From IMG/VR virus record IMGVR_UViG_3300031391_000282, positions 1 to 28,903 of that record: a stretch of 28,903 nucleotides of DNA. One strand, written 5' to 3'. Positions 3,726 through 12,137 of this stretch are shown in pieces (position 1 is the first letter of the stretch; every line of letters begins with the position of its first letter). Origin of the DNA: a virus. Made by a program: the position numbers and the translations under genes. Under the pieces are notes generated by a model. The model made no database searches. It saw only the letters and a list, made by a program, of their open reading frames with translations, and was not told the origin of the DNA.

Positions 3726-4847
3726 CTATGAAATGGGCGACGTGAGGACGTCATTCAGGTCGACACCCTCACCCGAATGAACAATCTGACCACGCAGACC
3801 GGGGCGCAAAGCCATCGCGCGCCGCAATCCAGCCTGGAGTTTTGCGCGGGTCGCCTTTGGATCGCTGTCTCCGTCCTGAATGAAAACAAGACGCTTTACC
3901 CAAGATGGCGGAACGAATGCGGCGACATCAGTCATGTCAGGCAGCCCAGAGTGACGCGTGCCCTCTACTCGCTGCATGCGACCGGCCATATTGCCCAGGT
4001 CGACCCCGGCCCAATAGGCGGCACCGGTGACCCCATCGGCGGCAAGGGCTGTCAAAGTAGTCTCGATGCCCTCCCCCATCACTAAGGTGTCAGTGTTTTT
4101 CGGAGTGTGCAGGCGGATAGCGCCGCCTTTCTTAGAGCCGCGCACCAGCTTCGCAGGCATCGCTGCGCCTTCATGCTGGATCATCGCCTTGCCTTTTGGA
4201 GCCGTTGGGTCAATCCACGTCTGGTGCACGGCTTCGAGCATTCCGTCGCATGCCTGCACGGCGGCAACCATGCAGGCGCCCCGATGGCAGGTAACCAACT
4301 GTCCACCAACTTTCTTGACATAGGCATGATCGCTCAACACCCTGAGCGCGACGGGAAGATCTAAAACCATCTCTTTGGTAATGCCGCGCGCGGCGAGGTA
4401 AGCCCGGACTAATGTGAGGTCGCCACCATCCGCTCGCTGCCAGATTGACTTTGCATCCGAAATGGCGCGCTGCCGGTAGCGCTCAGCATCGTCCGCCTGG
4501 GCCTTTGCATCGGCATCCGCCTTTTGACGTCGCCGCGCCATTTCTTCCGGATTTATCTCTGCTGGGGCAGCGCCACACAACCAAGTCAACGCAGCAGGAA
4601 AGGTCATATTCTGGATCTGCATGACCAAAGCGATCTGGTCACCACCGGCCACGTCATCGCACTTGCGACACTGGAAAAGATTGGTGCGCAGGTTGATCGC
4701 AAACCGGTCTTTACCGCCGCACAATGGACAGGGGCCAACCATTTCACCGCCCTGAATGATCAATCCCGCGATTCCAAGGCGGAACACGACTTCGGTCATG
4801 GGAATGCTTTTCGCGTCCATGACACGCGGATCTGTCGTAAAACTCAT
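3726..4847 (-). CDS. DNA primase with zinc finger and TOPRIM domain
   Basis: A 373-residue primase expected to make RNA primers for phage replication. Near the N-terminus is a CHC2-like zinc finger: CPLC at 40-43 and CRKC at 60-63, with GGKDRFAIN between. The middle (100-135) is a charged helix. The C-terminal TOPRIM domain shows VMGEGIETTLTAL at about 256-268, containing the catalytic Glu, and QDGDSDP at 324-330, containing the metal-binding Asp-x-Asp. This is the gp4/alpha-type primase fold. The start overlaps the preceding stop as ATGA (4847-4844), implying coupled translation. Together with the P4-type helicase downstream it forms the replication module. The motifs are unambiguous; the exact division of labour with the helicase is inferred. 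Confidence 0.92.
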   Translation of the reverse strand: MSFTTDPRVMDAKSIPMTEVVFRLGIAGLIIQGGEMVGPCPLCGGKDRFAINLRTNLFQCRKCDDVAGGDQIALVMQIQNMTFPAALTWLCGAAPAEINPEEMARRRQKADADAKAQADDAERYRQRAISDAKSIWQRADGGDLTLVRAYLAARGITKEMVLDLPVALRVLSDHAYVKKVGGQLVTCHRGACMVAAVQACDGMLEAVHQTWIDPTAPKGKAMIQHEGAAMPAKLVRGSKKGGAIRLHTPKNTDTLVMGEGIETTLTALAADGVTGAAYWAGVDLGNMAGRMQRVEGTRHSGLPDMTDVAAFVPPSWVKRLVFIQDGDSDPKATRAKLQAGLRRAMALRPGLRGQIVHSGEGVDLNDVLTSPIS

Positions 4848-9683: not shown

Positions 9684-9714
9684 TTGACAATCGACGTTTC
9701 TTCGATAGTTGTAT
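9684..9714 (+). promoter_or_regulatory. Promoter of the rightward (int) operon
   Basis: A consensus -35 (TTGACA, 9684-9689) followed by operator O4 in the spacer and a weak -10-like TTGTAT at 9709-9714 (19-base spacing) or overlapping hexamers closer in. Its arrangement copies the cro promoter, where the operator also fills the spacer. The -10 is imperfect. Confidence 0.5.
9690..9706 (+). promoter_or_regulatory. Operator O4
   Basis: ATCGACGTTTCTTCGAT, the best match to the operator consensus. It begins directly after the TTGACA -35 box, so repressor binding would silence the whole operon from 9738 to the integrase. Confidence 0.75.
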
Positions 9715-9737
9715 CTCCATCAACATGGAGAACGTCA

Positions 9738-10079
9738 ATGCAAATCAACTCATCCCCCGAACAGACCGCCCTCGAAATTCTGCGCGACCCTAATGCCTGC
9801 GCCGCTGACGCCATCCGGCAAGCCGCCGCATGGGTCACGCTAAAGCAAGCGCGCGGCCAGACCGTCGTCATTGAGCACATCGCCCTGCGCCTGCTCGAAG
9901 AGCGCGGCATCCCTGCCAACATGAGCACCCTCGCCGCGACCGAGCGCAAAATTCACCACACCGTAGAGGACGCAAACCGCCACAGCCCCGACCAGATGGC
10001 CCGCATCCGCGCCGCCGCACGCACCACCCTCCCCTGCCACGCCCACAGCTCCGGCCCCTACGGCGGAGACGCGGCATGA
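9738..10079 (+). CDS. Small phage protein, first gene of the rightward operon
   Basis: A 113-residue protein of unknown function, alpha-helical and Ala-rich. The middle (VTLKQARGQTVVIEHIALRLLEERG) is amphipathic; it shows no membrane segment. The C-terminal 40 residues (DQMARIRAAARTT ... GPYGGDAA) are homologous to the C-terminus of the protein at 11468-11881, and the last part is shared at DNA level through the 208-bp repeat. ATG with GGAGAA about 7 bases upstream. It is immediately downstream of a repressor-controlled promoter, the slot used for early regulators in other phages, but no DNA-binding motif is evident. Its stop overlaps the next tiny frame as ATGA. Confidence 0.7.
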   Translation: MQINSSPEQTALEILRDPNACAADAIRQAAAWVTLKQARGQTVVIEHIALRLLEERGIPANMSTLAATERKIHHTVEDANRHSPDQMARIRAAARTTLPCHAHSSGPYGGDAA

Positions 10080-10259
10080 GCATTTACGCAGCACCGACAG
10101 CGCTCGCATCCGAAAGGAAACTGAGATGAGACAATTTGCCGATATGTTCAAATACCGTTGCAACCCGCCGCCCGCACGCACCACGCAGGTCGAGGTCCGC
10201 TTGCTCTGTTCAGATGCCACGGTGAAAACGCTGACGGTACACATTCCCGAGACAACACC
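10052..10259 (+). repeat. 208-bp direct repeat, copy 1
   Basis: 205 of 208 bases are identical to 11854-12061 (offset 1802). It covers the end of one gene (GPYGGDAA), a 17-codon frame and the first 44 codons of a small gene. The copies flank the cytosine methyltransferase and one chimeric gene. Weaker homology extends about 90 bases upstream of both copies. Confidence 0.95.
10076..10129 (+). CDS. 17-residue coupled peptide, copy 1
   Basis: MSIYAAPTALASERKLR. Its ATG overlaps the upstream stop (ATGA) and its TGA overlaps the next ATG (ATGA), so it forms a translational bridge between two genes. The Shine-Dalgarno of the next gene (AAAGGA) lies inside it. It is identical in both copies of the repeat. 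It may act only as a coupling element. Confidence 0.35.
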   Translation: MSIYAAPTALASERKLR

Positions 10260-10299
10260 GGCCCGCGCGCCAGCAGCTCCATGTGCAAGGCGATGCTGA
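10126..10299 (+). CDS. Small phage protein, copy 1
   Basis: A 57-residue protein. The first 44 residues (MRQFADMFKYRCNPPPAR, then a beta-strand-rich part VEVRLLCSDATVKTLTVHI) are shared with the copy at 11928, apart from two residues. After the end of the repeat at 10259 the two copies differ completely: this one continues 13 residues (ARAPAAPCARRC). The good Shine-Dalgarno (AAAGGAAACTGAG before ATG) and duplication argue that it is expressed. Function unknown. At least one copy must have lost its original C-terminus through recombination at the repeat boundary. Confidence 0.5.
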   Translation: MRQFADMFKYRCNPPPARTTQVEVRLLCSDATVKTLTVHIPETTPARAPAAPCARRC

Positions 10300-10349
10300 C
10301 GCGCGGGCTGGTGACAATCGAGCGCCTGCGGATCCGAGGGGTGCTGTGA
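10260..10349 (+). pseudogene. Possible gene remnant at the repeat junction
   Basis: Immediately after the repeat boundary, one frame reads SSSMCKAMLTRGLVTIERL and stops at 10349 (TGA), directly before ATGG at 10350. The pattern looks like the last helix and wing of a winged-HTH regulator missing its beginning. It is too short to be sure. If real, it marks where the repeat truncated an older gene. Confidence 0.25.
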
Positions 10350-10354
10350 ATGGC

Positions 10355-11455
10355 ATGGTGTCACGTCCCCGGCACGGATTGTCCCTCTGCGCAGGCGGCG
10401 GAGGCCTTGATCTGGGCCTCATGCTCGCCGAGCCCGGCTATCACACCCGCGCATTTGTCGAATGGGATGACTGGCCCCGAACTGTGCTCATCGCCGCCCA
10501 GCGCGCAGGGTATTTCGCCCCGGCACCGATCTGGGATGATCTGCGCAGCTTCGATGCCCGGCCCTTCCGCGGTGCCTTCGACATCGTCCTCGCCGGATAT
10601 CCCTGCCAGCCCTTCAGCGGCGCCGGAAAGCGCGCCGGTGCCGACGATCCCCGCCACCTCTGGCCCGAGGTCGCCCGCGTCATCCGGGAATGTACCCCCG
10701 AGTGGGTCTTCCTCGAAAACGTCTCCGGACACGTCAGCCTCGGCCTTGAGACCGTGCTGCGAGAGCTTTGGAGCATGGGCTACACGCCTGCGGCGGGCCT
10801 GTTCAGCGCGGCAGAAGTCGGCGCGCCGCACCAGCGGCTCCGGATATTCATCCTGGCTCACACCGATGAGCCTGCATCCCGGCACCCCACCCCTGCCAGC
10901 ACAGGCGGCCCAATGGCAAGCGCCGGTGGCGGACGATCAGGTCGACCGGCTGCGCGGCAAGATCAACAGCCGGGGCGAGCCCAAGCTGAGTGCACAGGCG
11001 ATCCGGTGGCCGACACCGGCGGCGCAGAACTGGAAGGGCAGCAGCCCGGCCAGCATCATCCGCGCCGATGGCAAGAGCCGGATGAATATCCTGCATTACC
11101 GGGCGGAGCAGGGCTTCACCCACCCGGACCCGGTGATCGGGATGCATGGGCGGCAATCCTCGCCGCACGCCCCGATCTCGCGCCCGCTCTGGGCCTATCT
11201 GATTGCCTCGCATGGGCGGGTCGTCTCGCGGCGCATCCTGAAAGCCCGGGCACGGCGGCGGCTGAACCCACTCTTCGTCGGATGGCTGATGGGCTGGCCC
11301 ATCGAGCACGCGCTCTGCGCCTGCTCGGCAACGGAGTTCACCCACTGGCAGCAGCGCATGCGTGGCGCACTCTCGCAGCTGCCCATGGCCTCAGGCCCGT
11401 GGATCTGGCGACCGAGCCAGGAGCAGGAGGGCCCCGCGCAGATGAACCTCTTTGA
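10355..11455 (+). CDS. C5-cytosine DNA methyltransferase (frame A)
   Basis: A 366-residue Dcm-type enzyme. Motif I is LSLCAGGGGLDLGL (9-22), motif IV the catalytic GYPCQPFSGAGKR (Cys84), motif VI ENV (121-123) and motif VIII QRLRIFILA (160-168). A variable region with VADTGGAELEGQ follows. The C-terminus has GDRDAWAAILAARPDLAPAL, then RRMADGLAHRARALRLLGNG (motifs IX-X). The enzyme would methylate cytosine C5, probably for anti-restriction. From about 10866 the same DNA also encodes a second recognisable methyltransferase C-terminus in the +1 frame. The start is unsure: GAGGGG (10336-10341) is 4 bases from GTG 10346 and 13 from ATG 10355, but 8 from an ATG (10350) in the other frame. Confidence 0.85.
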   Translation: MVSRPRHGLSLCAGGGGLDLGLMLAEPGYHTRAFVEWDDWPRTVLIAAQRAGYFAPAPIWDDLRSFDARPFRGAFDIVLAGYPCQPFSGAGKRAGADDPRHLWPEVARVIRECTPEWVFLENVSGHVSLGLETVLRELWSMGYTPAAGLFSAAEVGAPHQRLRIFILAHTDEPASRHPTPASTGGPMASAGGGRSGRPAARQDQQPGRAQAECTGDPVADTGGAELEGQQPGQHHPRRWQEPDEYPALPGGAGLHPPGPGDRDAWAAILAARPDLAPALGLSDCLAWAGRLAAHPESPGTAAAEPTLRRMADGLAHRARALRLLGNGVHPLAAAHAWRTLAAAHGLRPVDLATEPGAGGPRADEPL

Positions 11456-11471
11456 AGGATTGCAGCCATGA
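10866..11471 (+). CDS. Overlapping frame B: second methyltransferase-type C-terminal domain
   Basis: 201 codons in the +1 frame relative to the methyltransferase. It has repeated W-x-x-P units (WLTPM at the start, WQAPVADDQ, WPTPAAQNWKGSS), then ADGKSRMNILHYRAEQ and LNPLFVGWLMGWPI, CSATEFTHWQQRMRGALSQL and a final QMNLFEGLQP. These are the hallmarks I recall from the C-terminal half of many phage 'DNA cytosine methyltransferases'. Its stop overlaps the start of the next gene as ATGA (11468-11471). The frame stays open upstream to 10350, but the upstream part looks like a shadow of frame A. Either it is a separate overprinted gene starting near ATG 10866, or it is reached by a +1 frameshift from frame A, giving two isoforms. 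No clear Shine-Dalgarno or slippery site was found. Confidence 0.55.
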   Translation: MSLHPGTPPLPAQAAQWQAPVADDQVDRLRGKINSRGEPKLSAQAIRWPTPAAQNWKGSSPASIIRADGKSRMNILHYRAEQGFTHPDPVIGMHGRQSSPHAPISRPLWAYLIASHGRVVSRRILKARARRRLNPLFVGWLMGWPIEHALCACSATEFTHWQQRMRGALSQLPMASGPWIWRPSQEQEGPAQMNLFEGLQP

Positions 11472-11881
11472 GCATGCAGGGACGGATCAGCCGCGCCTAT
11501 GGCAAAAAGGTAAAACGCGCGCTGGGCGTGCAAGCGCTGCTGGAATGGACGTTCCGGGTGGAAAAGGCACAGCTTGAACTGCCACCGCCGAAGGATGTGG
11601 TCGAGGAAGGCTATGGGTTTGGTCTGGAGTACGTCTTGATGCAGCGTGCCGCGCTGGGCTGCAAAGTGGATGGTGGCCAGCACAAGATGGGAAGTTACAC
11701 CCATGCAGATGCCGAGGTCATCGCCGCCATCGTCGCCACCGCGCGCTGGCAGATCGAGCACGCTCTGGGTGAGGCCCACCCGCACGGCCCGGCCCAAATG
11801 GCCCGCGTCCGCACCGCCACCCGCACCATCGCACAGGCCAAAGGCTATCCTCACGGCCCCTACGGCGGAGACGCGGCATGA
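11468..11881 (+). CDS. Chimeric small phage protein
   Basis: A 137-residue protein whose two halves have different relatives in this window. Residues 1-95 (GVQALLEWTF ... ALGCKVDGG ... DAEVIAAIVAT) match the N-terminal half of the protein at 762-1427. From about residue 97 (AQMARVRTATRT ... GPYGGDAA) it matches the C-terminus of the protein at 9738-10079, the last 9 codons lying in the 208-bp repeat. It lacks the CPVTYT...PW C-terminal half of its longer paralog. It looks like a recombination product formed together with the duplication. Strong Shine-Dalgarno (GAAGGA, 7 bases upstream). Function unknown. Confidence 0.75.
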   Translation: MSMQGRISRAYGKKVKRALGVQALLEWTFRVEKAQLELPPPKDVVEEGYGFGLEYVLMQRAALGCKVDGGQHKMGSYTHADAEVIAAIVATARWQIEHALGEAHPHGPAQMARVRTATRTIAQAKGYPHGPYGGDAA

Positions 11882-12061
11882 GCATTTACGCAGCACCGAC
11901 AGCGCTCGCATCCGAAAGGAAACTGAGATGAGACAATTTGCCGATATGTTCAAATACCGCCGCAACCCGCCGCCCGCACGCACCACGCAGGTCGAGGTCC
12001 GCTTGCTCTGTTCAGATGCCAAGGTGAAAACGCTGACGGTACACATTCCCGAGACAACACC
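11854..12061 (+). repeat. 208-bp direct repeat, copy 2
   Basis: 205 of 208 bases identical to 10052-10259. The three differences are a two-base change in codon 12 (Cys to Arg) and a one-base change (Thr to Lys) in the small gene inside the repeat. Downstream sequences of the two copies are unrelated. Confidence 0.95.
11878..11931 (+). CDS. 17-residue coupled peptide, copy 2
   Basis: Identical in DNA and protein to the frame at 10076-10129, again with ATGA overlaps at both ends, here linking the chimeric gene to the small gene at 11928. Confidence 0.35.
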   Translation: MSIYAAPTALASERKLR

Positions 12062-12137
12062 CGCAACATTTGGAGCGCGAAATGCAGACACCATCAAACA
12101 TCCCCGGCGCATCGGCGGCCCTCATCGCTGCCCTTGA
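11928..12137 (+). CDS. Small phage protein, copy 2
   Basis: A 69-residue frame sharing its first 44 residues with 10126-10299 (Cys12 to Arg, Thr33 to Lys). After the repeat it continues 25 residues (TFGARNADTIKHPRRIGG...) while overlapping the next gene by 56 bases in another frame, so that tail is probably not an evolved sequence. The same AAAGGA ribosome-binding site is present. Confidence 0.45.
   Translation: MRQFADMFKYRRNPPPARTTQVEVRLLCSDAKVKTLTVHIPETTPATFGARNADTIKHPRRIGGPHRCP

Follow-up and report, generated by a model that had tools for sequence, protein, structure and literature searches.

The window, by which we mean the whole 28,903-nt stretch analyzed (positions 1 to 28,903 of the IMG/VR virus record IMGVR_UViG_3300031391_000282), carries a C5-cytosine methyltransferase gene whose coding strand is open in two frames over almost its entire length: frame A, which holds the catalytic domain, and frame B, which lies +1 to it (Table 1). 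The ATG of B follows immediately 3' of a TGA at 10347–10349 and lies 5 nt from the ATG of A. Of the flanking genes examined, one encodes an integrase and the other has no known function. A pair of 211-bp direct repeats (10052–10262 and 11854–12064, 98% identical and 1802 bp apart) brackets the methyltransferase, and the ORFs terminating within the repeats (9684–10079 and 11468–11881) resemble paralogues. The methyltransferase may be part of a cassette that has been duplicated or can be exchanged.

Table 1. Features of the overlapping methyltransferase locus, in window coordinates.
Feature	Position	Strand	Basis
Frame A, open 10283–11455; catalytic start ATG 10355 or alternative GTG 10346	10355..11455	+	reading frames
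Frame A as putative alpha subunit, C5-cytosine methyltransferase with motifs I–VIII and X	10355..11455	+	PF00145, phrog_363, codon shuffling
Frame B, proposed beta subunit, 373 aa, +1 to A and covering almost all of it	10350..11471	+	phrog_27243 (E 3e-109) and phrog_1008; +1 frame stop-free and start conserved in relatives
Shine-Dalgarno-like GAGGGG, could serve both the A and B starts	10336..10341	+	sequence
Start cluster GTGAATGGCATG: A GTG 10346 or ATG 10355, B ATG 10350	10346..10357	+	sequence
A catalytic motif IV, Pro-Cys-Gln	10601..10609	+	P83, C84 and Q85 invariant in alignment A2
B unit WPTPAAQNWKG...RADGKSRMNILHYRAEQGF, part of the proposed target-recognition segment	11007..11117	+	W68 and P69 invariant
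B motif IX-like LNPLFVGWLMGWPIEH	11262..11309	+	+1-frame z; profile match to canonical motif IX
A motif X block RRMADGLAHRARALRLLGNGVHP, on bases common to B motif IX and SATEFTHW	11276..11344	+	G313, N326 and P330 invariant in alignment A2
Downstream gene, phrog_9306 (function unknown), whose ATG shares ATGA 11468–11471 with the stop of B	11468..11881	+	

Database matches differ between the two frames. PF00145 matches A over residues 9–172 only (E 1e-32), ending at motif VIII, phrog_363 extends over residues 9–344, and the best PDB match is HhaI (E 5e-29). Frame B has no match in Pfam, NCBIfam or the PDB. Family-wide, A contains motifs I–VIII and X and lacks motif IX; the absent motif is found in B, as LNPLFVGWLMGWP, and shares bases with the motif X block of A, which over this region reads RRMADGLAHRA from 11276 and then LGNGVHP at 11324–11344. 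Both frames evolve slowly over A residues 305–340, the motif X block. An earlier note on the window had pointed to such double readings, and they are reproduced here: VADTGGAE in A from 11006 and WPTPAAQN in B from 11007, LNPLFVGWLMGWPIEH in B over the motif X bases of A within 11262–11330, and the ATGA with which B runs into the next gene. That note had confined B to 10866–11471, whereas in relatives it is open over the whole gene, from a conserved start that in the window is ATG 10350. It had also assigned RRMADGLAHRARALRLLGNG of A to motifs IX and X, which is correct for the motif X block but not for motif IX, which sits in B instead.

In C5 enzymes the recognition domain lies between motifs VIII and IX. 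This is also where B carries its PTP segment, whose length varies in multiples of three bases. The number of PTP units differs among relatives, again in multiples of three, and the window is without one unit (~156 nt) that is common in close relatives (window 10866–10910 compared with L001:2840–3000).

Searches of viral and bacterial contigs gave a first round of 222 loci. B is +1 to the catalytic domain in 210 of the 211 loci that have both parts (the window counted), and both frames are open and +1 to each other in 209/210 first-round loci. With four more scans and a few annotated records the set grew to 488 loci, with some contigs entered more than once, and in 465 of these B overlaps the catalytic ORF in +1. 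One scan queried frame A alone, so that B was not directly selected for in it, although one of its two patterns (RMADGLA) falls in the dual-coded block. The exceptions inspected are contig ends (L359, L381 and L386), single indels, or loci in which B is present but was overlooked by the profile, as in L347, L360 and L367, where the B motif IX appears when the DNA is read in +1. B is found without an overlapping catalytic ORF at 13/488 loci, those inspected being contig ends or broken copies, and among the complete genes checked no catalytic-only member without B was found. The overlap is common to relatives whose A proteins are less than 50% identical, and members of 45–50% G+C retain B.

The starts are conserved as well. 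In most representatives the N-terminus of B reads M(x)W[LIY][YI][VI]P and its ATG adjoins the start of A; of 81 representatives, 27 have the junction NTGAATG and 23 have ATGTG. A Shine-Dalgarno-like motif precedes the ATG of B in 45/81 relatives, compared to 21 in shuffled sequence. In some members, including Paenibacillus phage Diva and L369, L376 and L379, the start of B is internal to A.

Several loci show individual peculiarities. The only nucleotide match between a metagenomic phage and Escherichia coli prophages is a 69-nt stretch (L369:3403–3471) in the dual-coded IX/X region. A prophage copy in E. coli PCP07014 (L491:2001–2790) has stops at the same place in both frames and is annotated as a pseudogene. 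At four loci (L390, L389, L399 and L397; B ORF from 2501) an insert with an HNH endonuclease-like ORF in the third frame splits the dual-coded motif LNPxWVEWLMxWP, and beyond it motif X of A and the C-terminus of B resume; an out-of-frame HNH insertion of the ShiLan type in a phage methylase is similar (PMC11855218). An Rfam search of the loci with the insert matched no intron model. Near the methyltransferase, L397 also has matches to RT-15 RNA (RF03018) and Proteo-phage-1 RNA (RF03044), at 472–648 and 3958–4036.

Selection on both frames is seen by several measures. Across the catalytic domain, the +1 frame is stop-free in 78 of 86 divergent relatives, compared to 8.6 expected when codons are shuffled with A preserved; the corresponding count for the +2 frame is 2. 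Stops per gene in +1 number 1.33, versus 5.30 after shuffling, and no other frame is depleted. Canonical one-chain methyltransferases from related genomes, which match PF00145 to the end of the profile, have 10–17 stops in +1, as shuffling predicts. Among 128 close relatives, substitution at A codon positions 1, 2 and 3 is.08,.045 and.28 in the catalytic part but.20,.09 and.115 in the overlap, so that the fastest position shifts from A3 to A1 (which is B3) in the C-terminal half; in the same relatives four-fold sites of A differ at 0.28 in the catalytic part and are ~3x slower in the overlap, at 0.086. We also compared distant pairs (A less than 60% identical) after shuffling codons with either A or B kept. 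In the C-terminal half, shuffles that preserve A destroy the similarity of B (median z 5.3; 91% of pairs beyond all shuffles), and those that preserve B destroy the similarity of A (median z 4.1; 71% of pairs beyond all shuffles). In the catalytic half the median z is 10.3 for A given B but only 0.6 for B given A; since B here has little amino-acid conservation beyond that owed to A, this stretch of it may be mainly spacer. Position by position, B is conserved along the gene in 86 representatives, with peaks at the WPTP block (z 30) and at LNPxFVEWLMGWP (z 69), but these z values are inflated, as control frames also give positive z, and we therefore rely on stop depletion and the wobble switch as the clean signals.

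As judged from these comparisons of sequence, A and B both code for protein and both evolve under purifying selection, an arrangement found throughout the family. The earlier note's observation that both frames are open is confirmed, and one of its two proposals, that B is a hidden, overprinted second protein, gains strong support: frame retention at 209/210 loci, frame-specific stop depletion and the wobble switch are far beyond chance, and the purifying selection for which it had suggested testing both frames of homologous loci is borne out by shuffling and by the switch. Equally well supported is its suggestion that, across the family, a single DNA read in two frames accounts for both textbook types of C-terminus. 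A sequencing indel is rejected, as hundreds of loci agree, and a chance ORF arising from high G+C is rejected by codon shuffling, by the canonical-enzyme controls and by the low-G+C members.

What the two proteins do together is suggested by how the motifs are divided between them. The locus is very probably a split, heterodimeric C5-cytosine methyltransferase with both subunits read from the same DNA in two frames. The alpha subunit (frame A) would supply the cofactor-binding and catalytic core (motifs I–VIII) and motif X; the beta subunit (frame B) would supply a variable PTP-repeat target-recognition segment and motif IX, and would thus act as the recognition subunit. As their starts lie a few bases apart behind one ribosome-binding region, A and B are presumably made together, and they would pair to form a complete enzyme for methylating phage or prophage DNA, possibly protecting phage DNA from restriction. 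The assignment of alpha to A and beta to B is the best reading of motif IX in B, motif X in A and the likeness of the B block to canonical motif IX: a profile of LNPxFVEWLMGWP scores 20.9 against the canonical motif, compared to a maximum of 14.0 over 200 column permutations, although the match is short (HH-suite probability 15–20%, E 0.001–0.002) and speaks for similarity, not function. AlphaFold2 models of B are of low confidence (mean pLDDT 55–57), and we counted these models and the shortness of the motif IX match against this explanation. Variants in which the pieces are joined differently support the split-enzyme reading. In L325 and L282 the B frame carries motif IX and then X in one frame, and Gordonia phage Float294, Mycobacterium phage Lunsford and Streptomyces phage Euratis have PTP units and motifs IX and X on a gene of their own downstream of the catalytic gene.

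B could instead be a true overprinted protein that is no methyltransferase subunit, such as an anti-restriction or regulatory protein. Its lack of matches in the domain and structure databases would fit, as would PHROGs, which places the B-type phrog_27243 under unknown function, apart from the A-type families. We consider this unlikely, given that motif IX is missing from A throughout the family while a motif IX-like block occurs in B, that in the variants a single frame, or a neighboring gene with the annotation DNA methylase, holds the PTP units together with IX and X, and that B rarely occurs without an overlapping catalytic ORF. Less probable still is programmed +1 ribosomal frameshifting, the earlier note's other proposal, in which the catalytic domain would be fused with B alongside A. 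B is in the +1 frame, its strongest constraint starts near the end of the catalytic domain, and one contig of a metagenome-assembled genome (MAG; L213) has the catalytic domain and B in a single frame; however, this single case may be an indel error, B retains its own conserved N-terminus and start beside that of A, and it is stop-free across the catalytic domain, which frameshifting would not need. The two isoforms that the note had envisaged are likewise replaced by what are probably two subunits of one enzyme. That only A is real, with B held open by high G+C and conserved DNA, is barely conceivable: high G+C does make long spurious ORFs common, and antisense frames of the window also contain long ORFs, but A-preserving shuffles of equal composition yield stops, four-fold sites of A slow down in the overlap, members of modest G+C keep B, and canonical methyltransferases do not keep their +1 frame open.

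The overlapping arrangement has a wide distribution. Members occur in phages, prophages or plasmids of Alphaproteobacteria, Escherichia, Klebsiella, Pseudomonas, Synechococcus, Paenibacillus, Mycobacterium and Leptospira; B profiles match 29 of 149 genomes of one host bacterial family and 14/200 across its phylum. One bacterial genome (G001, the source of L144) has four separate B-frame copies. Databases put the two frames in unrelated families (phrog_363 versus phrog_1008 and phrog_27243), and usually one of them is annotated: in two related cyanophages one record has frame A and the other frame B, Mycobacterium phage XFactor has B only, and Diva and Escherichia phage fKuEco01 have both. We found no paper describing the overlap family-wide in the sources searched. 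On present sequence data, it is probable that phage C5 methyltransferases of Proteobacteria, Cyanobacteria, Firmicutes, Actinobacteria and Spirochaetes (in phages, prophages or plasmids) include a very large family of obligate heterodimers, fully overprinted from neighboring starts, with motifs X and IX on the same bases. Their specificity could change by exchange of PTP modules, which, being multiples of three, would keep both frames.

Long, nearly complete same-strand gene overlaps are regarded as rare in bacteria and their phages, and most of them as recent. The overlap described here is old, with both products probably serving one enzyme. Since almost all complete relatives examined have the arrangement, the second half may be missing from many phage methyltransferase genes as annotated. 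A cloned alone would probably be inactive, a point of possible importance for orphan phage methyltransferases whose activity or specificity is unknown. As a natural and deep data set, the family could also be used to test methods of overlapping-gene detection.

Among known systems, single-chain C5 methyltransferases (M.HhaI, Dcm type, PF00145) have the same catalytic domain as A, but they carry IX and X in one frame and have stops in +1. They hold all ten motifs in one chain, and those in related genomes match PF00145 to about position 322, whereas the match of A, which has no motif IX, reaches only motif VIII. M.AquI consists of a catalytic subunit with motifs I–VIII and a second subunit with IX and X (PMC3404938). 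Here that arrangement occurs only in L325 and L282 and in the actinophages (those of Gordonia, Mycobacterium and Streptomyces); the window family, in contrast, keeps motif X on the catalytic subunit, and its genes overlap almost completely. The same overlapping B frame has been annotated by depositors in Diva (an internal gene of gp49) and fKuEco01 (Mte8-like protein), where the nested genes are labeled hypothetical protein or putative methyltransferase case by case, with no role given and, in the sources searched, no recognition of the family as a whole.

The closest precedent is M.EcoHK31I (YGGCCR, E. coli HK31; sequence X82231), in which a large subunit has motifs I–VIII and X and a small subunit has motif IX alone (PMC3404938). 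As published, this distribution of motifs is that of A and B: A has I–VIII and X without IX, and B has motif IX by profile similarity and by the order IX then X in L325 and Float294. Lee, Kam and Shaw (1995) reportedly describe the small subunit of M.EcoHK31I as encoded in another frame, which overlaps the gene of the large subunit. A small-subunit frame overlapping the large gene is also what the A/B family has. A distant blastn search of E. coli genomes for the EcoHK31I sequence did not find the restriction-modification locus but did find prophage members of the family. The two differ in setting, as M.EcoHK31I belongs to a restriction-modification system, whereas the loci here are in phages and prophages among phage genes, and in the placing of recognition, as the predicted recognition domain of M.EcoHK31I is described as part of its large subunit, whereas the recognition-like segment here is in B. 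Unlike in M.EcoHK31I, B here usually starts beside the start of A and covers the whole gene.
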